This document shows positions 24,639 through 33,863 of a DNA stretch of 50,980 nt, piece after piece (within the stretch, counting starts at the first letter, position 1; the number at the start of each line of letters is the position of its first letter). The DNA is from Anaerolineae bacterium. Its GTDB lineage: Bacteria > Chloroflexota > Anaerolineae > Aggregatilineales > Phototrophicaceae. Both the position numbers and the translations under genes were made by a program. Location of the stretch: assembly GCA_025454525.1 (NCBI GenBank), contig JALOOG010000017.1, positions 1-50,980 on the forward strand, in the 5' to 3' direction. Under the pieces are notes generated by a model that had not been told where the DNA came from, ran no database searches, and saw nothing but the letters and a program-made list of their open reading frames with translations.

Positions 24639-25691
24639 TCATAACTTTCCGACAGAGATAGTCCCTATTTCGTCGGCTACTGCGATCATGCTGTCATCTG
24701 GTGTCCATGCGAGTCCGGCAATCGGGTCTTTGAATACCGCACTTGTTAACAAGACGGATTGTTTCTTGTCTACGCGCCAGATCGCTAACATACCATCTTT
24801 GCCACCAGAAGCCAGAAGATTGCCTTGATGTTGAAATTTCAGGTGCTTGATCAAGTGCTGATGACCTTGAAGCATGATCGGCTTTGATCCCGCCGGCCCC
24901 TTACCGGAGCAATCCCAGATCACCACTTGCGAACCGCCGCCTGTCGCTAAATAGCGGCTGTTGAAGCTCCATGATAGCTCCATCACCTTGGTTTCATAGC
25001 CCCACATTTGTAGGTCTTGTCCGGTCTTGGTGATCCAAAAATGGACGGTGGAGTCTTGATCTCCTGTGGCAATATAACTACCATCGGGACTCCATTCTAA
25101 GGTGAGGGTTGAACCTTTCCATTCAAAGCGCCGCAACGGTTCATCTTGAAGGGGGTCGTATAACACGACCCCGTTGTAAGCAGAAACTGCAAACTGTTGT
25201 CCGTCATTGCGCCATTTGATGTCGGTGATGGTGCTTTTCGCATCGGGATATTCACGGAGTAACTCACCGTGGAGGTTCCATAATTTTAGTTTGCGTCCGG
25301 CGGCCGATAAAAACCAATCGGCAGTAGGACTAAAAGCGACTCGTTCAACCCAACTGGCTCCTCCGGTCATTTCTGCGGTTTGTGTGCCTGTTTCGGTGTC
25401 CCATAAACGTACTTTGCCATCTTGTCCGACACTCGCTAGGAAACGATTATCGCGATGCCATGAGATCGCCATGGTATCTAACGTGTGGCCGGGTAAATTC
25501 TGATGAGGTGCGCCATCATCCCCTTTAAACAAACGAATTGGCCCAGAAACCCCTGCGACGGCTAACGTTTTCCCATTTGGCGACCATGCTAAGGCAACTG
25601 GATGATCGTCGAATGAGGTGCGCCACTTGGTTTTTAACGCCGCTGGTGGCGGTTTCGATTTGTCTTTCCGTTGCATCATGATACGAGACAT
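24639..25691 (-). CDS. WD40 repeat protein
   Basis: The 350-residue product is a single beta-propeller of about seven WD40 blades from residue 25 to the end. Recurrent segments include VALAWSPNGKTLAVAG, AISWHRDNRFLASVGQDGKVRLWD, LEWSPDGSYIATGDQDSTVHFW and LKFQHQGNLLASGGKDGMLAIW. There is no signal peptide or catalytic domain, so it is probably a cytoplasmic scaffold. It overlaps the 3' end of the COG0523 GTPase gene, and is the last gene of the zinc-linked run. I keep ATG 25691, with a GAGGGTGG site upstream; ATG 25679, which gives a 4-bp ATGA overlap, is the alternative. Confidence 0.88.
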   Translation of the reverse strand: MSRIMMQRKDKSKPPPAALKTKWRTSFDDHPVALAWSPNGKTLAVAGVSGPIRLFKGDDGAPHQNLPGHTLDTMAISWHRDNRFLASVGQDGKVRLWDTETGTQTAEMTGGASWVERVAFSPTADWFLSAAGRKLKLWNLHGELLREYPDAKSTITDIKWRNDGQQFAVSAYNGVVLYDPLQDEPLRRFEWKGSTLTLEWSPDGSYIATGDQDSTVHFWITKTGQDLQMWGYETKVMELSWSFNSRYLATGGGSQVVIWDCSGKGPAGSKPIMLQGHQHLIKHLKFQHQGNLLASGGKDGMLAIWRVDKKQSVLLTSAVFKDPIAGLAWTPDDSMIAVADEIGTISVGKL

Positions 25692-27034
25692 GCGCGAAAC
25701 CCACCCTCAAGCGCATCGCGATCTAGATTGCGCCCGATAAAGATCATCTTATTATGGCGTAATTCATGCCCCCAAGGGCGATCAGGGCGGCCATCAAAAA
25801 GCATGTGTACTCCCTGAAACACAAACCGCTCATCCCACCCACGCACGCTTAACACCCCTTTCATACGGAAGATGTCTTGGCCGTGGATACGCAACAGTTG
25901 GCTTAACCAAGCGTTGAGTTTATCCAAGTGGAGATCCCCAGCGATGGTGATACCGACGGAAGTCACTTCCTCATCATGTTCGTGATCGGGTTTGTATTCA
26001 CGAGTTTGGAGCGGTTCAATTACCGCGTCTGAGCTATGGAGATGCGCCTCAAATTCATCGGGGTGATGTTCGGTGAAAAGCTGATAGTAGCCGGGTTGTT
26101 CTATGTTGATTTTAAAGAGGGTTTCTCCGGTTGGGTTTAGTACCAATTGGTTTAGTTGCCCCTTACCGATCGGCAAGACCGCTCCGGCTTGCACCTCATG
26201 ATCATCTTCAGCAAAAGCCAATACCGCTTCCATCAGAGTGGCTTCTTGGGCAGCCATACCCTTATTTTCGGTTGACAGTATCGCCATACCCATCACCGGA
26301 TCGGGGCCTTCCCCCATGACCCATTCGTATGTGCCGGCCGCTAAGTGATAGAGGCCTGACCACTCAAAGGGGTATTCTGGTTCCATAAACTTAGGATCGA
26401 CTTCTAAGGCGCGATCTAGGTTAAAACCGCCCACATTCAGGATTTTATCCATCTCGATGATCGCGTCACGGGTGCGATAGACTTTTGCCATCGTGTTCAT
26501 GTTTTTGATACGCGCCTCAAGCTTATCCAGATCTTCTGGCGCTACCAGATCGGTCTTATTGAGTAGGATCACATCGGCAAAGGCGATCTGTTCTTGCGCT
26601 TCATCGCTATCATCAATGTGTTCCCAGATATGTTTAGCATCTACCACCGTGACGATCGCATCTAAGCAAAGTTTTTGTTGCATATCATCATCAACATAGA
26701 AGGTTTGGGCGACAGGGCCGGGGTCAGCCATGCCGGTGGTTTCAATCATGATGTAATCGAATTTGTCACGGCGTTTCATCAGATGGCCAAGGATACGGAT
26801 TAAATCTCCGCGCACCGTACAACAAATACAACCGTTGTTCATCTCGAATATTTCTTCTTCTGCGCCGATCACTAGATCGTTATCGATCCCGATTTCGCCG
26901 AACTCATTCTCAATAATGGCAATTTTCTTGCCGTGGTTTTCAGTCAAAATACGGTTTAAGAGGGTGGTTTTACCCGATCCCAAAAAACCAGTTAAGACGG
27001 TGACAGGGATTCGGGTTTCAGTTGAAGGCATCAT
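25676..27034 (-). CDS. COG0523 (G3E) metal-chaperone GTPase
   Basis: A 452-residue CobW/COG0523-family GTPase. It has Walker A GFLGSGKT (residues 16-23), the family metal-binding CxCC motif in NNGCICCTVRGD (Cys69-72), MIETTGMADPGPV, and NKTD for guanine recognition. The C-terminal CobW_C region is long, with HHPDEFEAHLH and DHEHDEE His/Asp patches. Family members deliver or allocate zinc to client proteins in low zinc; the neighbours (Zur, znuABC) support a zinc role here. ATG 27034 has GGAG eight bases upstream; a GTG three codons earlier overlaps that site. It overlaps the WD40 gene. Confidence 0.93.
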   Translation of the reverse strand: MMPSTETRIPVTVLTGFLGSGKTTLLNRILTENHGKKIAIIENEFGEIGIDNDLVIGAEEEIFEMNNGCICCTVRGDLIRILGHLMKRRDKFDYIMIETTGMADPGPVAQTFYVDDDMQQKLCLDAIVTVVDAKHIWEHIDDSDEAQEQIAFADVILLNKTDLVAPEDLDKLEARIKNMNTMAKVYRTRDAIIEMDKILNVGGFNLDRALEVDPKFMEPEYPFEWSGLYHLAAGTYEWVMGEGPDPVMGMAILSTENKGMAAQEATLMEAVLAFAEDDHEVQAGAVLPIGKGQLNQLVLNPTGETLFKINIEQPGYYQLFTEHHPDEFEAHLHSSDAVIEPLQTREYKPDHEHDEEVTSVGITIAGDLHLDKLNAWLSQLLRIHGQDIFRMKGVLSVRGWDERFVFQGVHMLFDGRPDRPWGHELRHNKMIFIGRNLDRDALEGGFRACLVS

Positions 27035-27049
27035 TTTTAACACTCCTTT

Positions 27050-27271
27050 TTATCGTTTTATTGAACAACAAGCACAACCTAAGCGATGAGCGGGGGATGG
27101 CAACATTTCAGGGGAATGTCGCATCCCGATAACAGCTACTTGGCTCATGAGACGTGTGGTGAGCAGACTGTGACAAGCCGGACATGGGGCCACTTTATCA
27201 GCATCTGACATGCTTCTTTTCTGCTCAAAAACCGTGTGACATTCCTCACAACGATAATCGTAAACAGGCAT
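27050..27271 (-). CDS. FmdB-type zinc-ribbon protein
   Basis: A 73-residue protein starting MPVYDYRCEECHTVFEQK, the FmdB/CxxC_CxxC_SSSS signature. Two knuckles, CEEC and CPAC, should bind one zinc. Unlike typical members, it ends in GCACCSIKR, giving an additional Cys cluster. The chosen ATG has GGAG seven bases upstream; upstream in-frame codons overlap the preceding gene. It sits 15 bp before the COG0523 gene and overlaps the miniature CxCC gene by 26 bp, so all three are probably made together. Function unknown; a metal-sensing or metal-carrying role fits the locus. Confidence 0.85.
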   Translation of the reverse strand: MPVYDYRCEECHTVFEQKRSMSDADKVAPCPACHSLLTTRLMSQVAVIGMRHSPEMLPSPAHRLGCACCSIKR

Positions 27272-27695
27272 GGACGGTCTCCTCATACACAAACGGTTCA
27301 TATAGGACAAGATCACTGTAAAACACGAATTTCTGTGCTAGATAGGGATATTGGGTTTTTGTCGAGTCATCCACTAACGCAATCGTCGTGATTTGTACCC
27401 GCGATCCGCGTAAACTATCTAACAACAAGTACAACGTTTCTGGATCAGACGATGAAGATGTGAGCAACAAGCCATAGTCGGTTTTTAATCGCCAAACTAG
27501 AGGAATCACGGCGGCGGCTAATGAACAGCAAACACACCCTCCCGCTAATCGTGTTCCTATACCTAACTTCAACGGTTCATCACCGTTGTCGATCACCGTT
27601 AGGGGGATGTTTTGCGCGGTCAATGCTTCAATTAAAGCCCGTGCAAGCTCCGTTTTGGCGCTATGACGCATCCCGGTAATGACGATTAATTGCAC
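27246..27695 (-). CDS. Miniature G3E-like protein with CxCC motif and degenerate P-loop
   Basis: The 149-residue product resembles only the N-terminal half of a COG0523 GTPase. It opens LIVITGMRHSAKTELARALIEAL, where the P-loop (GMRHSAKT, residues 8-15) keeps Lys-Thr but loses the glycine before the lysine. The metal motif GGCVCCSL (Cys54-57) is intact. The NKxD guanine motif and the whole C-terminal CobW domain are absent. It starts with GTG 7 bp after the DegT-like gene and overlaps the zinc-ribbon gene. A metal-binding accessory to the full-length GTPases nearby is my inference; it could also be a nucleotide-binding decoy. Confidence 0.75.
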   Translation of the reverse strand: MQLIVITGMRHSAKTELARALIEALTAQNIPLTVIDNGDEPLKLGIGTRLAGGCVCCSLAAAVIPLVWRLKTDYGLLLTSSSSDPETLYLLLDSLRGSRVQITTIALVDDSTKTQYPYLAQKFVFYSDLVLYEPFVYEETVHACLRLSL

Positions 27696-27701
27696 GTTGC
27701 A

Positions 27702-28868
27702 TCAATCCCCGACAGCTTCGATCGGATCTAGCATAAATAATGGGCGATAAGCGTCGTGTCCGCGGCCATACGTCCGATCCATTAAAGCGGCGTATTCCGC
27801 AGCATAAGATGGATTGATGCGCCAACGCACGCCCAAATATTCCGCAGATTTGACAATGCCTAATACACCGTGTTTGATCTCCTCAAAGGTATAGTCTGGC
27901 CCGACAGGGACATACAACCAACGGCTTAGATTGGTAGCCGTGGCGCGGTGATCTGGCGCACCGTCGGGACGCAAGGCGGCATAATGAAGCGGTTGAATCT
28001 GCGGTAGCCAACGCACAGGCGTGTTTTCTTGTTCTACATAAGCATAAAACGTGGCAACATCGCTCTCTAATGGAATTTGCACCGCAACTCCCGTGGCTAA
28101 TGCCAGACGGTTCCCTTGAGCTGTCACCAGTCCGGCCGCTTCATGTAAACCGCGCCGCACCTCATCTAGATTCTTGGTTTGCAAATCAGATAACCGGAAT
28201 AACCGTTGGCATTGGGCCAAGGCCTGCGCGGGATTGGGAATGTCGTTGGCTTGGCGCAAATTATGAACGCCGTTGTACAAGTTCTCATCACCGAACACCA
28301 ACAAAGCACCAGAACGACTGACATCGGATAGATGCAACCCATACAGCGTTACCGCCGGACGTTCGGTTGGATAAGGAAGCGGCAAGGTATCGGCATAATC
28401 AAGCCACTCCGCTTGATCGGGTTGCCATAAACCCCGTACTACTTGCGTCCAAGTCCACCGAATATCGGCTTCCCGGGAAGTGAGTTGTAAATTCGCATCA
28501 AAATCTAGAAAGCGCGGTAACGCTTTGTGATGTTTGACCGACTCGGCTAAATCATTGCTGGCATTGGCAGGGATGCCGATCGCATCACCGGGTTGAATCT
28601 TCGCGGCTTGATGCAATAATCGGCGTGCGCGGTAAGCGTCACGGATTAACAAGACTTTCGCGCCGCCTAAATATTCTGACCACGCTTTTTCCGCTGCTGC
28701 TAAGGTGACATTGGTAGGTAAAGTGGTGTTAGCGGGTAAGCTAAGCAGATCGTCTAAGGGCGGATGCGCGGCGTAATCTGCACCACGCACGGGCAACCCG
28801 CCTAGCGCTCCCACCGCGCAAAATCCCCCTAACCATAAGGTTGACCAATCAACCGGTAAATTTAACAT
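27702..28868 (-). CDS. DegT/DnrJ/EryC1-fold protein, catalytic lysine apparently lost
   Basis: A 388-residue protein whose layout looks like the fold-type-I PLP superfamily. AKIQPGDAIGIPANASNDLAES and ALPRFLDFDANLQLT resemble the DegT cofactor region, and RWLYVPVGPDYTFEEIKHGV resembles its C-terminal end. At the usual HxxK Schiff-base lysine the sequence is GLHLSDVSRSGALLVFGDE, with Asp in place of Lys. I therefore expect a non-aminotransferase role. The start is ATG 28868, two bases after the znuB stop, with GAGG upstream; earlier in-frame codons overlap znuB. Presence in a Zur-linked operon is unusual. Family call is tentative. Confidence 0.6.
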   Translation of the reverse strand: MLNLPVDWSTLWLGGFCAVGALGGLPVRGADYAAHPPLDDLLSLPANTTLPTNVTLAAAEKAWSEYLGGAKVLLIRDAYRARRLLHQAAKIQPGDAIGIPANASNDLAESVKHHKALPRFLDFDANLQLTSREADIRWTWTQVVRGLWQPDQAEWLDYADTLPLPYPTERPAVTLYGLHLSDVSRSGALLVFGDENLYNGVHNLRQANDIPNPAQALAQCQRLFRLSDLQTKNLDEVRRGLHEAAGLVTAQGNRLALATGVAVQIPLESDVATFYAYVEQENTPVRWLPQIQPLHYAALRPDGAPDHRATATNLSRWLYVPVGPDYTFEEIKHGVLGIVKSAEYLGVRWRINPSYAAEYAALMDRTYGRGHDAYRPLFMLDPIEAVGD

Positions 28869-28869
28869 C

Positions 28870-29724
28870 TTATTCCTCTCTCTCTTGTTTCTCTTGATGA
28901 ATGCGAACATTAAGCGTTTGCCATAACCACGCTAGGAAAAAAAATCCGGTACACACTAAGACAATCGCGGCCCCGGAGGAGACATTGGCGTAAAATGAGG
29001 CATATAAACCGATCACACCGGAAGATATGGCGATGATGATCGCGATGCCGATCATGTGCCAAAGGCGATGCGTTAGCAATGAAGCTGCGGCCGCGGGAGT
29101 CACCAACAGCGCGGATGTCATCACCACACCAACCACCTGAATACTACTCACCACAGCAAAGGCCAGTAAAAGCAATAAGAGGTAGCGTAATCGGGTGGTT
29201 TTTAACCCGATCATTTCGGCGTGAATTGTGTCAAATGAGGTGAGTTCCAGTTCTTTGTGAAACAGGAATAACAGTACTAGAACTCCTCCAGTCATCAATG
29301 CAATGAAGATCAGATCGTTGGAGGTCACGCCTAAAATGTTGCCGAACAGGATATGCGTAAAATCACGAAACGAACGGGTACTGCTCATCAAGAGGACACC
29401 TAAAGCAAACATACCCGTAAAGGTCACGCCAATCGCTGTATCTTCTCGGATGATTTCGCGCCGTGACAGCCAACCAATCCCCAAGGCGGTACATACCCCC
29501 GCCAATAACGCACCAATCGACAGATTGACTCCCTGTAAATATGCGATCACAACACCGGGTAAGATCGTGTGAGACAACGCATCGCCAATAAAGGCCATGC
29601 GTCGCAACACCACATATACGCCGATGCTGGCACAAACCAATCCAACCAGAGCAACCGCTATCAATGCGGATTGCATAAAATTGAATTGAAACGGGGTTAT
29701 CAGCCAATTGATGATGTCATCCAT
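28870..29724 (-). CDS. znuB: Zinc/manganese ABC transporter permease (ZnuB-like)
   Basis: The 284-residue polytopic inner-membrane protein is an ABC-3 family metal permease with about eight or nine hydrophobic helices. Diagnostic stretch: YVVLRRMAFIGDALSHTILPGVVIAY near residues 35-60, then IIREDTAIGVTFTGMFALGVLL. It forms the translocation pore for the binding protein and ATPase encoded just upstream. I start at ATG 29724, which overlaps the ATPase stop by 8 bp; a longer frame upstream would be inside the ATPase gene. No metal-specific residue distinguishes zinc from manganese; zinc follows from the ZinT domain and Zur gene. Confidence 0.92.
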   Translation of the reverse strand: MDDIINWLITPFQFNFMQSALIAVALVGLVCASIGVYVVLRRMAFIGDALSHTILPGVVIAYLQGVNLSIGALLAGVCTALGIGWLSRREIIREDTAIGVTFTGMFALGVLLMSSTRSFRDFTHILFGNILGVTSNDLIFIALMTGGVLVLLFLFHKELELTSFDTIHAEMIGLKTTRLRYLLLLLLAFAVVSSIQVVGVVMTSALLVTPAAAASLLTHRLWHMIGIAIIIAISSGVIGLYASFYANVSSGAAIVLVCTGFFFLAWLWQTLNVRIHQEKQEREE

Positions 29725-30457
29725 GTAAATTTGTCCCCGTGAAGTCTGCTGATAAGGGCATAATTTCGCGGCCTTCAGCAAGATATAGTGCGCTATCAAA
29801 ATCACTTTTTAGCCTACTGAGATCATGGGTAGCCGTGATCACGGTTTTTTTCTCCTCGCGAAGCAAGGCTAACAACTCCCCCATGAGTTGACGTGTTTCC
29901 GCATCAACCGCGTTTAAGGGTTCATCTAGTAATAACAGTTCAGCCTCTTGCGCTAAGGCCCGGGCCAAAAGCGCCCGTTGTTGTTGCCCGCCCGAAAGTT
30001 GACTGATCTGGCGTTCGCGTAAATCACTCAAACCTAAGCGCTCAATGACATGATCGGCCACGCGCCAATCATCTTGTGAGGGGCGCTTAAACCAACCTAA
30101 ATGAACATAACGTCCGGTCAATACCAATTTGCGTAGGGTAATCGGGAAATGCCAATCGATCTCTCCACGTTGTGGTAAATAAGCGACACGATGATGACAA
30201 GCGCCCGGTGGATTCCCATAAATGGCGATGCTACCGGAACGAATGGGCAATAACCCGGCGACGGTCTTAAGCAAAGTGGATTTGCCCGCGCCGTTATGTC
30301 CGACTAAGGCAATCTGTGATCCGATCGGCACACGAAGGCTTACGCCTTTTAATGCCAGTCGCCGTGTGTTTGGGTAGACAGCGGTGAGATCACGCACTTC
30401 TAGCGCTAACGCCCCGGCCACTGCATCCTTATGAACACGACGACTGTAGGGAAACAT
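29717..30457 (-). CDS. znuC: Zinc ABC transporter ATPase (ZnuC-like)
   Basis: A 246-residue ABC ATPase. Walker A is GHNGAGKST (near residues 53-61), the Q-loop is LPQRGEIDW, the signature is QLSGGQQQRALLARALAQ, and Walker B is LLLLDEPLNAVD followed by the H-loop in ITATHDLS. It drives uptake of a divalent cation through the ZnuB-like permease. The start ATG is 2 bp after the znuA stop, and the stop overlaps znuB, so the three subunits are coupled. Confidence 0.94.
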   Translation of the reverse strand: MFPYSRRVHKDAVAGALALEVRDLTAVYPNTRRLALKGVSLRVPIGSQIALVGHNGAGKSTLLKTVAGLLPIRSGSIAIYGNPPGACHHRVAYLPQRGEIDWHFPITLRKLVLTGRYVHLGWFKRPSQDDWRVADHVIERLGLSDLRERQISQLSGGQQQRALLARALAQEAELLLLDEPLNAVDAETRQLMGELLALLREEKKTVITATHDLSRLKSDFDSALYLAEGREIMPLSADFTGTNLHG

Positions 30458-30459
30458 GG

Positions 30460-32016
30460 CTACCGCAGGGCCTCGGTGATGGTATCGATGTTATAGCGGA
30501 GCATACTGATATAGCTTTCGCCCGGCGTTCCTAATTGACCTAAAGCATCGGTGTATAAGGCAGGCGCAACTTGAACGCCGGCTTCGTCCGCTACCTGCTC
30601 AATTAGATCTGGGTTGGTGATATTTTCGGCAAAGATCGCGGGGATGCCGCTTTCCTCAATTTCAACGGCTAATTCTGCAATTTCACCCGCGCCGGGATCT
30701 GCGGCTTCGGTGGAAATAGACCCCAACACATTTAGCACCTCAAAACCATATTCCTCTGCGAAATACCCAAAGGTGTCATGTGAGGTGACAAGGATACGGT
30801 TCGCTTCTGGGATCAGGGTCACTTGTGAGCGGATATATTCATCTAATGCGGTCAATTCCGCAATATAGGCTTCGGCGTTGGTTTCATATTCTGCTGCGTT
30901 CGTCGGGTCAAGTTCGATCAGAGCATCTCGGATATTTTCTGTCATCACGATACCATTGTTCGGATCATGCCAGATATGCGGATCAAATTCGCCATGCTCA
31001 TGATCATGGTCATGGTCTTCTTCCTCGCTCATCATGGCCATTTCTTCATCCGTGATGGCGATCTCTCGGCCGACCACCCCGGCGACATATATTCCCAAGG
31101 GGCGGGCATTGGCTTCATAGACGAGAATGATGTCAGCAGCGGTAGTGCCTACTGGGTAAAGTGACGGGAAAAAAACCCCGTTTTCTTCAATGAGCGTTTC
31201 GAGATCACCACTGCCATAGCTCATGTGGAAGTGCGGGATGCTGCCTTCTTCGGCGGCATGAATGGGATTGAGCAGCAAATACTGATACCCAGCATCCAGA
31301 CAAGTTGCCTCGGTGGTGTCAAAAATAGACCAAGTTTCCCCTTCAACTTGGGGGATAGGATGTGTTTCGACAAAAGCATAGGTACAAGTCAAGTCACCGT
31401 CAGAATGTCCGAATGTGACACGATCCCCATTTACCGAAAAGGTATCAAATGAGGTTACGTTGGTCATTTGCCAATAGGTGTTTAGATCTTCGGTCGTCAA
31501 TTCGGGTGTCGTGGCGATCACCGCTTCCCAACCGGGTTGGAGGGCATCAACACCAAAGGATGAGGCACTCATGAACTCACCTTGCCATGCTTCTAAGGTG
31601 GTTGGTGCTTCCATGTGATCATGATCGCCTTCATGTTCGTGTTCTTCATGTTCTTCATGTTCTTCAAAAGCCAACGGTTCGATCCCTTCGCTCACTACGA
31701 TACGGGTAGCCGTTGAACCTGATGCCTCATACAAGTCATCTAGCCAAGTTTCAAATTCCAGTCCGTTTTCAAAAATGAGATCCGCTTCGGATAAGACGAT
31801 CGCATCTTGAGGGGTGGGTTCATAGACGTGTGAGTCGCCATCGGGCCCGACTAAAACAGTAAGTTCAATCTGATCTCCAGCGATATTCTGTACAATGTCA
31901 CCCAAAATGCTATAAGTGGCCACCACGCGCAGCGGTTCTGGTTGTGCGACAACGATAGATCCACTCCAAGCGAAAACCAAAAATAGACATAATGCGGTTA
32001 AGCGGCGTAAAGCCAT
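30460..32016 (-). CDS. znuA: ZnuA zinc-binding protein with an inserted ZinT-like domain
   Basis: The 518-residue exported protein has a signal peptide (about 1-24) and a cluster-A-I metal-binding fold. ZnuA ligands are visible: His63 in [10 protein letters not shown], His347 in DPHIWHDP, His413 in TSHDTFGYF, and Asp490 in LYTDALG. Ordinary ZnuA has one His-rich loop between the first and second ligands. Here that loop (117-134, [15 protein letters not shown]) is followed by a 150-residue domain (about 140-288) that resembles ZinT/Yod[32 protein letters not shown], and PHFHMSYG (262-264 HFH). A second His/Asp run (334-341) follows before DPHIW. In AdcA-type proteins ZinT is C-terminal, so this insertion is unusual. 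Confidence 0.9.
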
Positions 32017-32044: not shown

Positions 32045-32485
32045 TTAAGAATGTTGCTGACAGGCCACGCAAGTACCGAAAAGTTGCAAACGACTATCGG
32101 TGATGTGGTGACCACTAGAGCGTTCACTTTGATGTATGAGATCATGTAGCGGTTGTCCGTCAAGATAATCTGCGCGTCCGCAGACCAGACAGATAAACAG
32201 CATCATGGGTTCAGGCAAGGTTGGCAGAAAAGAACAACACCCTTGATAGCCATGAATACGACGCAATAGATTTAAGCTTTCCAATTTCTCTACCATGCGA
32301 TAAACCGTGGCCCGCCCGGTTTCTGGACGAATCTGACGCGCTGTTTCCCAAACTTGTTCAGCACTTAACGGAATCTCTGTATGTGCCAAGATATGGACTA
32401 GCATTTCCTGTACATCGGTTATGCGGCACCCGTTTTCACGCAAGGCCGTCAACCATTTATTCGCGTCGATTGTGTGTGCCAACAT
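32045..32485 (-). CDS. zur: Fur-family regulator, probably Zur
   Basis: The 146-residue protein has a winged-helix DNA-binding half (ENGCRITDVQEMLVHILAH, GRATVYRMVEKLESLNLL) and a dimerisation half with two CxxC knuckles (CLVCG and CVACQ) that hold the structural zinc. It lies 28 bp upstream of znuA on the same strand, so it controls its own operon. Two palindromic operators stand in the promoter it shares with the divergent COG0523 gene. Zinc as the effector is inferred from these neighbours; sequence cannot exclude another metal. The start is ATG 32485, one codon after a GTG. Confidence 0.9.
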   Translation of the reverse strand: MLAHTIDANKWLTALRENGCRITDVQEMLVHILAHTEIPLSAEQVWETARQIRPETGRATVYRMVEKLESLNLLRRIHGYQGCCSFLPTLPEPMMLFICLVCGRADYLDGQPLHDLIHQSERSSGHHITDSRLQLFGTCVACQQHS

Positions 32486-32514
32486 CACCCCACCTTACCA
32501 CCCTTGCGTCATCA

Positions 32515-32533
32515 ATTGATACCAAGTATCATT
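32515..32533. promoter_or_regulatory. Putative Zur operator 1
   Basis: ATTGATAC-CAA-GTATCATT is a near-perfect palindrome (core TGATAC/GTATCA). It lies 30 bp upstream of the zur start and 27 bp, centre to centre, from operator 2. Confidence 0.75.
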
Positions 32534-32541
32534 TACAGTGT

Positions 32542-32560
32542 ATTGATACCACGTATCAAT
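32542..32560. promoter_or_regulatory. Putative Zur operator 2
   Basis: ATTGATAC-CAC-GTATCAAT is a perfect 8-bp inverted repeat around a 3-bp spacer. Its position fits a minus-strand promoter with TTGTCA, 17 bp and TATCAA, whose -10 would lie inside the site. Repression of both divergent transcripts is expected. Confidence 0.78.
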
Positions 32561-32762
32561 TAGATTGACAAGATCGAATTGAAGTGGGTGCGGTTTGAAC
32601 CAAAAACGGGATCTCCCTTTTGCTGAAGGTGTGGAAAGAGTGAGTTAGAAAAACACAGCGAGTCGCTCGTATTTGGGTTTTAGAGAAGATCCTTAACCGT
32701 GAAACTTACTGCGTTGCCCGTCGTTTAACACCCTTATAAATCAGAATGGAGGCGTATCTGTT

Positions 32763-33863
32763 ATGAATAAATATAATTTTCCAGTTCCTATGACTATTCT
32801 GAGCGGCTTTCTTGGTGCCGGCAAAACAACGCTGCTTAATCATATTTTGCATGGCAACCACGGTCTAAAGATCGCCATTTTAGTGAACGACTTTGGCGCG
32901 ATCAACATTGACGCGCAATTGGTGGTAGGGGTAGAAGGCGAAACGATCAACCTGTCTAACGGCTGTATCTGTTGCACAATTCGCGGTGATTTACTCAAGG
33001 AAAGCCTCAAATTGCTCCAACGGGAAGATCCGCCCGAATATATCATCATTGAAACCAGTGGTGTTTCTGATCCTGTTGCGGTTGCCAATACCTTCTTGAT
33101 GCCGGAGGTGAAACCTCTGGTGCGTTTGGATAGTATTCTTGTTGTGGTTGATGCGGAACATATCCAAACCTTAGAAGAAGAATATTATATGCTGGCGATC
33201 GATCAAATTGCGGTTGCAGACATTGTGATCTTAAACAAAGTTGATCTCATTACCCCGGAAGAACTTCAGGACATCAAAACTAAGCTCATCCGTGGTATTG
33301 TGCCAGAGGCCCGCATTTTAGAAGTGACCTATGGACAAGTGCCGTTAGAATTGGTGCTAGGCGTAGGGCAGTATGCCTTAGAGCGGGTGTGGCAACGCGA
33401 GGTGAAAGATGTGCATGTGCATGGGGCAGAAGAGGAGGATGATCATCATCATGAACACGAACATGAACACGATGAACATACGCATCATGAACATACAGAT
33501 CATACCCTTGTTTTTAGCACATGGAGTTGGACAACCGATAAACGATTGTCACTCAAGGCATTGCGGGCTATGTTTGAAGAATTACCGAACACCATTTACC
33601 GCGCTAAAGGGGTCGTTCATCTGGATGATGTACCAGATAACATGGTTATTCTTCAGATGGTGGGTAAGCGTGCGAGTTTAACACTGGCTGGCGAATGGGG
33701 AGATGAAACACCCCGTACTCAGATCGTGATGATTGCTTCACATGGGGGCTTAGATGTCGAAACGCTTCGTCAGCAATTGATGGAGTGTGTGGTTGAAGAT
33801 GAACATGATGCCCAAAAACAGAATATTAACCCTAAAACTGAGTGGATGCGACAACCGCGATAA
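32763..33863 (+). CDS. Second COG0523 (G3E) GTPase with His-rich loop
   Basis: The 366-residue protein has Walker A GFLGAGKT (15-22), CxCC in SNGCICCTIRGD (68-71), IIETSGVSDP, and NKVD. A His/Asp/Glu-rich loop (about residues 215-250: DDHHHEHEHEHDEHTHHEH and around) precedes the CobW_C domain, as in zinc-handling members such as YeiR-like proteins. It is divergent from zur and shares the two operators, so it should be induced in low zinc. The two COG0523 proteins in this locus differ in length and in where their histidines lie. GGAGG is upstream of ATG. Confidence 0.93.
   Translation: MNKYNFPVPMTILSGFLGAGKTTLLNHILHGNHGLKIAILVNDFGAINIDAQLVVGVEGETINLSNGCICCTIRGDLLKESLKLLQREDPPEYIIIETSGVSDPVAVANTFLMPEVKPLVRLDSILVVVDAEHIQTLEEEYYMLAIDQIAVADIVILNKVDLITPEELQDIKTKLIRGIVPEARILEVTYGQVPLELVLGVGQYALERVWQREVKDVHVHGAEEEDDHHHEHEHEHDEHTHHEHTDHTLVFSTWSWTTDKRLSLKALRAMFEELPNTIYRAKGVVHLDDVPDNMVILQMVGKRASLTLAGEWGDETPRTQIVMIASHGGLDVETLRQQLMECVVEDEHDAQKQNINPKTEWMRQPR

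Follow-up and report, generated by a model that had tools for sequence, protein, structure and literature searches.

The locus examined here raises the question of why a domain resembling the metal chaperone ZinT should lie between the two lobes of a zinc-binding protein, and what it might do there. The gene (30460-32016, minus strand) belongs to a 50,980-nucleotide stretch of an Anaerolineae bacterium contig, JALOOG010000017.1, and this whole stretch is referred to as the window. Its single uninterrupted frame, free of stops, encodes 518 amino acids, which ORF and profile evidence identify as a zinc binding protein of the AztC/ZnuA type that carries ZinT as an internal domain. In order, and all on the minus strand, the protein comprises a signal peptide (recognized by eye) with the N-terminal lobe (residues 1-119; 31660-32016), a first histidine-rich run (residues 117-138; 31603-31668), the ZinT insert, which is lipocalin-like (residues ~137-319; 31060-31608), a second histidine-rich run (residues 332-344; 30985-31023) and the C-terminal lobe from residue ~343 (30460-30990). 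The initial annotation of this DNA had described two flanking histidine runs, and both are present, with His120, His123, His126, His128, His132 and His134 in the first and His335, His337, His339 and His341 in the second. The insert begins after the histidines of the first run and stops before those of the second, directly ahead of the DPHIW motif.

Both lobes are intact by several measures. The Pfam ZnuA family (PF01297) matches the protein at 304.9 bits against a cut-off of 29, in two stretches, with the C-terminal lobe covered over residues 323-515, and residues 31-118 of the N-terminal lobe are matched separately by the AztC model. The embedded position that had been claimed for the insert is borne out by these ZnuA stretches on both of its sides and by close relatives in which no domain was found (G005, G042, G053, G048:C208 and G058:C262), where the loop is only 16-36 amino acids long. 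The core ligands also stand where the initial annotation had placed them: His63 in the N-terminal lobe and His347 (of DPHIW), His413 and Asp490 in the C-terminal lobe, three histidines and one acidic residue that form a putative zinc site between the lobes.

The assignment of these lobes to ZnuA is correct at the level of the Pfam family, but they appear from profile scores to be nearer to AztC than to E. coli-type ZnuA: the AztC equivalog NF040870 gives 295.6 bits, below its cut-off of 350, as against 104 bits for the ZnuA model PRK09545. The AdcA model NF033605 reaches 113 bits against a cut-off of 700, which falls short of membership, and ZinT is internal here. Compared with AztC structures over residues 27-518, a model of the whole protein scores Z 22.3 (rmsd 3.4 for 255 residues), and both lobes are therefore present; its best fold matches are 5w57 and 5kzj (both Z 22.3, where rows within 1 count as tied). 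With a pLDDT of 74 and a pTM of 0.48, this model does not allow the placing of the domains relative to the cleft to be interpreted.

The identity of the insert rests on profile, model and alignment. Pfam ZinT (PF09223) matches residues 138-296 at 32.7 bits (E 8e-8, cut-off 27), rising to 35.1 bits for the excised insert alone, so that the profile search named in the initial annotation as a test of its claim came out in favour of ZinT. A sequence search of the PDB found Salmonella ZinT (4arh, E 3e-5) and the AdcA C-domain (7jja, E 0.009), both over residues 140-296. The excised segment was modelled at a pLDDT of 89.3 with the lipocalin-like ZinT fold that the second test named in the initial annotation called for, and its nine top fold matches are all ZinT or AdcA structures (Z 16.2-17.1), the next fold scoring 7.1. 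The histidine triad is kept: His253, His262 and His264 align with His167, His176 and His178 of E. coli ZinT, and their H-x8-H-x-H spacing (9 and 2) is that given for His452, His461 and His463 of AdcA (PMC7858048). The segment was thus correctly named, but its proposed limits of ~140-288 end too early, since helices at 293-302 and 304-315 in the model extend the domain to residue ~315-320. The equivalog for free ZinT, PRK10306, gives 14.9 bits against a cut-off of 300, and the insert is accordingly best described as a divergent ZinT-type domain and not as an orthologue of free ZinT. The protein is the single ZinT match in its genome (G000), and a family search of that genome detected no AztD.

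The surrounding genes are those of a typical zinc uptake operon. The binding protein is followed on the minus strand by the ABC ATPase of the transporter (29717-30457; PF00005) and an ABC-3 family permease (28870-29805; PF00950, 253 bits), and further downstream by a COG0523/CobW-type GTPase (25676-27043, minus strand). Upstream lies a Fur-family regulator (32045-32488, minus strand; PF01475), which its context makes likely to be Zur, and a second COG0523/CobW-type GTPase, with a histidine-rich stretch, is encoded divergently (32763-33863, plus strand). The same gene run also holds a 402-amino-acid protein with no clear family (27702-28910; best match DegT, E 0.1), a small GTPase-like protein with a CobW match below cut-off (27246-27695) and a zinc-ribbon protein (27050-27316; Zn_ribbon_8). 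Between fur and the divergent cobW are two similar palindromes, ATTGATACCAAGTATCATT and ATTGATACCACGTATCAAT (32514-32561). Allowing at most one mismatch, the palindrome pattern has 12 matches genome-wide (both strands counted) at eight distinct places, two of them in the window, as against none for the same pattern read backward. The two palindromes are candidate Zur boxes, and Zur would be expected from this setting to control the operon. The stronger claim of a proven Zur box was not accepted: of the six places outside the window, the two inspected, on contig C212, do not adjoin plain zinc genes.

An insertion unique to this protein was at first favoured, since ZinT was detected in one genome of a 400-genome draw from the phylum, the window's own, and searches with the bare insert returned no related locus and no plasmid sequence; viral contigs contained no relative. 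That view was later overturned, and uniqueness is rejected, by ZinT in four of the 154 genomes of the order and in Subdoligranulum. The search for the same insertion elsewhere, which the initial annotation had proposed, identified four sequences from Clostridia and three further genomes of the order, in one of which the protein is spread over two frames. The survey covered one order (154 genomes), the 400-genome phylum draw and some of the class to which G552 belongs; an initial search with the window protein covered 61 genomes and found long frames in several. Loop domains were called with profiles built from these sequences; Pfam and NCBIfam confirmed them independently for a subset of the proteins and through the family searches for ZinT and AztD.

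Within the order, the four genomes carry five ZinT domains, and all five are at the binding-protein loop. There is one in G000, two in series in G486, and a ZinT followed by an AztD in both G491 and G505. The ZinT and AztD protein of G491 lies in a frame of 1024 codons (L069 3291-6362), whereas that of G505 (L070 3986-6803) extends over two overlapping frames, with the break inside AztD and the C-terminal lobe in the second frame. At the G491 locus, the end of an upstream Fur-type gene, with weak Fur/PerR matches, shares the frame with no intervening stop. A record labelled Bacteroidetes, JAPUDW010000271.1 (L110), is the same contig as one in G491, a genome of the window genome's family.

AztD also occupies the loop. 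NCBIfam AztD detects the domain at 229-263 bits in four proteins. In three of these it lies between the lobes; in the fourth, the start of which is lost at a contig end, it precedes the C-terminal lobe. Across the order, AztD matches occur in 18 of 154 genomes: 11 are strong and lie in binding-protein frames (with G505 counted over two frames, and with only AztD and the C-terminal lobe seen in G006 and G498, which are cut by a contig end), one stands in a frame of its own of 372 codons (G475), and six weak partial matches were left out of the count. In the phylum draw, 12 of 400 genomes have matches, four of them in a binding-protein loop (G217, G281, G278 and G378, from two families of the same phylum), one without lobes seen (G154) and seven weak. 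A third domain, Pfam PCuAC, was found between the lobes in G004; PCuAC is present in 115 of the 154 genomes of the order, with at least this one loop case among the matches listed. The loop is thus a recurrent insertion site, which within one order holds ZinT, two ZinTs, ZinT with AztD, AztD, or PCuAC.

Other arrangements were seen in passing. PCuAC is C-terminal, behind the lobes of zinc-type binding proteins, in G002 and G006:C42 (L036 1753-3330 and L039 1621-3021). Three further proteins (L041 1345-2769, L042 2385-3725 and L038 2486-4081) have loops of 130-198 amino acids that are rich in histidine, aspartate and glutamate, with 27-35 histidines and none of the domains sought.

The same architecture is found in Clostridia. 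A tblastn search of plasmid records returned a 516-codon frame of Subdoligranulum variabile in the order lobe, ZinT, lobe (ZinT 117 bits), with a Fur-type gene before it and an ATPase and permease after it, as read by eye from the translations. In the class of G552 (a record called Clostridiales; 291 genomes), ZinT occurs in eight genomes: in the loop in three (G625, G794 and G610; Pfam ZinT 80-234 bits), as a gene adjoining a binding protein in four, and at the end of a long SLH-looking protein in one. In all, four Clostridia sequences have a loop ZinT, one of them on a circular record of 334,647 bases.

Several Clostridia and other sequences are organized differently. In a Clostridiales MAG (L114 2-4258), a ZinT domain ends a long protein that looks SLH-type by eye. 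Four Clostridia binding proteins (L122 139-1494, L123 103-1449, L124 110-1423 and L125 2023-3414), each with a ZinT gene next door, carry an unclassified loop insert of ~150 amino acids with FGHTHED and EMGH-x-x-G-like motifs, noted by eye. Pfam scans of L122 and L123 found no family in this insert, and a PDB search with that of L123 returned only the flanking lobe and two chance-level matches. On Phyllobacterium plasmids, a single ORF beside aztC encodes AztD followed by ZinT, the reverse of the order in G491 (L126 3872-5731, 620 codons, and L127 2675-4504, 610 codons); the L126 record lists ZinT as its own gene. A Deferribacteraceae MAG has a 408-codon frame (L112 3857-5080) with two ZinT-like domains in a row, the second recognized by the profile built here only.

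The distribution of ZinT carriers bears on how often the domain was acquired. In a 36-row lobe tree (23 of the 45 surveyed loop proteins, G505 and 12 others), the Chloroflexota-type and Clostridia ZinT carriers are far apart and a joint clade is rejected (p-AU 2.2e-4); in this tree the E. coli branch is very long, and four Clostridia rows have an unusual composition. In a tree of 21 ZinT domains, with four of 18 inner branches strong, grouping of the loop ZinTs from the two sources is also rejected (p-AU 2.8e-4), and the four Clostridia domains themselves do not form one group. A single origin of the ZinT insertions seen is therefore rejected by both trees, and ZinT seems to have entered the loop at least twice. 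In a 49-row lobe tree, the four ZinT carriers of the order group together (86/84), beside AztD carriers; it may be guessed from this sequence comparison that ZinT was added to AztD and later replaced it in G000 and G486. No AztD remnant was recognized by eye in the window protein, and its linker after ZinT resembles those of G491 and G486. A single clade for the 15 AztD rows of the lobe tree was likewise rejected (p-AU 1.7e-5, with long branches present), a test that does not address one ancient insertion with many losses, which is a different model.

Most inserts in relatives keep their zinc ligands. The 15 loop-type AztDs were aligned to Phyllobacterium AztD, with numbering and roles as given in PMC6689063, where site 2 is described as the site passing zinc to AztC. 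This site is readable in 14 of the 15, with His99 in 14/14, His102 in 13/14, and aspartate or histidine at position 104 in seven each; at site 1, His124 is present in 13/14, His167 in 14/15 and His218 in 13/15. Four ligands are lost in G281 and one in G217, and in the second ZinT of G486 an asparagine replaces one triad histidine; some inserts thus need not act as chaperones.

What the loop is known to do elsewhere suggests a role for the insert. The AztC loop and its three histidines are reported to be needed for zinc transfer from AztD, a transfer described as associative (PMC6689063), and in a docking model the loop enters the AztD pore (PMC6689063, PMC7463823); in Paracoccus this loop is short (residues 117-133; PMC7463823). 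The ZnuA loop has been implicated in cooperation between ZinT and ZnuA (PMC7731109), and in AdcA the histidine-rich loop is reported to lie where the lobes meet the ZinT domain, which is dispensable unless the loop is deleted too (PMC7858048). According to a 2019 account, an interaction of ZinT with ZnuA had been shown and metal transfer had not (PMC6689063), and a 2021 account states that direct in vivo interaction of ZinT in Gram-negatives had not yet been observed (PMC7858048).

Given that the loop is reported as needed by both ZinT and AztD, and that both are found at the loop, the insert is taken here as a tethered chaperone. The reading that we favour, with a probability of roughly 0.6, is that the protein is a natural fusion in which ZinT would be tethered at the chaperone docking loop and zinc would be passed within one chain. 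ZinT has been inserted into the flexible histidine-rich loop (the D-loop of AztC), before the second zinc ligand; the tethered domain would most likely capture scarce zinc at its histidine triad and hand it, via the two flanking histidine runs, to the interlobe site with its four ligands. The usual encounter of chaperone and binding protein would thereby take place within a single polypeptide. The three-part zinc relay in one polypeptide that the initial annotation put forward is a proposal of this kind. For the window protein itself, it is from sequence and from the analogous systems that we infer capture of zinc, its passage from ZinT to the lobes and any gain in uptake. The joining of partners in a single polypeptide commonly signals that they are functionally linked.

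The main competing explanation, in which ZinT buffers or stores zinc, raising its local level or retaining it, and the metal gets to the lobes by way of the solvent with no direct hand-over, is considerably less probable than the tethered chaperone. The AdcA C-domain site is reported to be less selective and open to solvent, and import to need no more than the N-domain (PMC7858048), and long simple histidine runs, such as those of the three extended loops without a domain found, would suit buffering. However, AztD, itself among the loop modules described above, is reported to transfer zinc associatively and to need the loop (PMC6689063), and mere buffering would not call for the repeated choice of one loop by unrelated chaperones. 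PCuAC, by its Pfam name a copper chaperone, fits less well with a zinc relay.

A further idea is that the loop is merely tolerant, with inserts retained for metal detoxification, surface attachment or folding, or nearly neutral. An exposed, flexible loop would be expected to accept insertions from tolerance alone, and it does hold other material, both the histidine-, aspartate- and glutamate-rich stretches and the unclassified insert of the four Clostridia; the TIGR03772 family also seems to carry a long insert between its lobes. Against this, the inserts that could be identified all handle metals and mostly retain their ligands, a bias not expected from chance, and we regard mere tolerance as improbable. 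That two genes were wrongly joined in assembly or gene calling might be suspected from the many contigs of most genomes, the MAG label of several records and the broken frame of G505, but is refuted for practical purposes: the G000 frame has no stops, the same layout occurs in G486, G491 and the four Clostridia sequences (including the circular record), and lobes of one protein stand on both sides of the insert, an arrangement that a false join of two genes would not produce.

If the tethered-chaperone reading is extended beyond ZinT, the histidine-rich loop would serve periplasmic metal chaperones in general as a plug-in socket, accepting AztD, PCuAC, two ZinTs or ZinT then AztD in the relatives. 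Under this extension, to which we give even odds, unrelated folds (the ZinT barrel, the AztD propeller and PCuAC) would have been spliced repeatedly, singly or serially, into the same position in Chloroflexota and, for ZinT, in Clostridia, giving an intramolecular relay. ZinT followed by AztD would then amount to a single-chain relay of two steps, and the fusions would reveal the site of action of free ZinT and free AztD. In these natural proteins ZinT and, in separate cases, the unrelated AztD stand at the loop to which mutants had pointed. The single-chain proteins would allow first-order transfer kinetics, free of docking, and related lobes with no insert, ZinT, two ZinTs, AztD, or ZinT and AztD constitute a natural swap set.

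The components of this system, and a C-terminal ZinT fusion in AdcA, are already known. In the open-licence PMC literature, no description was found of chaperones inside the loop, of binding proteins that combine ZinT with AztD or contain two ZinTs, or of such insertions having arisen repeatedly. A further parallel may be TIGR03772, which scores 174 bits on the window protein (cut-off 350) with the lobes matching profile positions 2-60 and 310-485; as these are far apart, this family likely holds a long insert in the same region. Its members are anchored-repeat binding proteins, presumably of Actinobacteria and with an insert domain that, to our knowledge, is neither ZinT nor AztD. AztC and AztD of Paracoccus denitrificans are similar in that the lobes are nearest to AztC by profile and fold and that relatives hold AztD in the loop, but there AztD is separate and the loop short, whereas the window loop holds ZinT. 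Enterobacterial ZnuA and free ZinT represent the same two components, encoded by separate genes (znuA and zinT in E. coli) and fused in the window protein. AdcA of streptococci and enterococci likewise combines lobes and ZinT in one chain, with equal spacing of the histidine triad, but its ZinT is C-terminal (lobes 39-318 and ZinT 344-511 in Enterococcus AdcA), whereas that of the window protein lies between the lobes.
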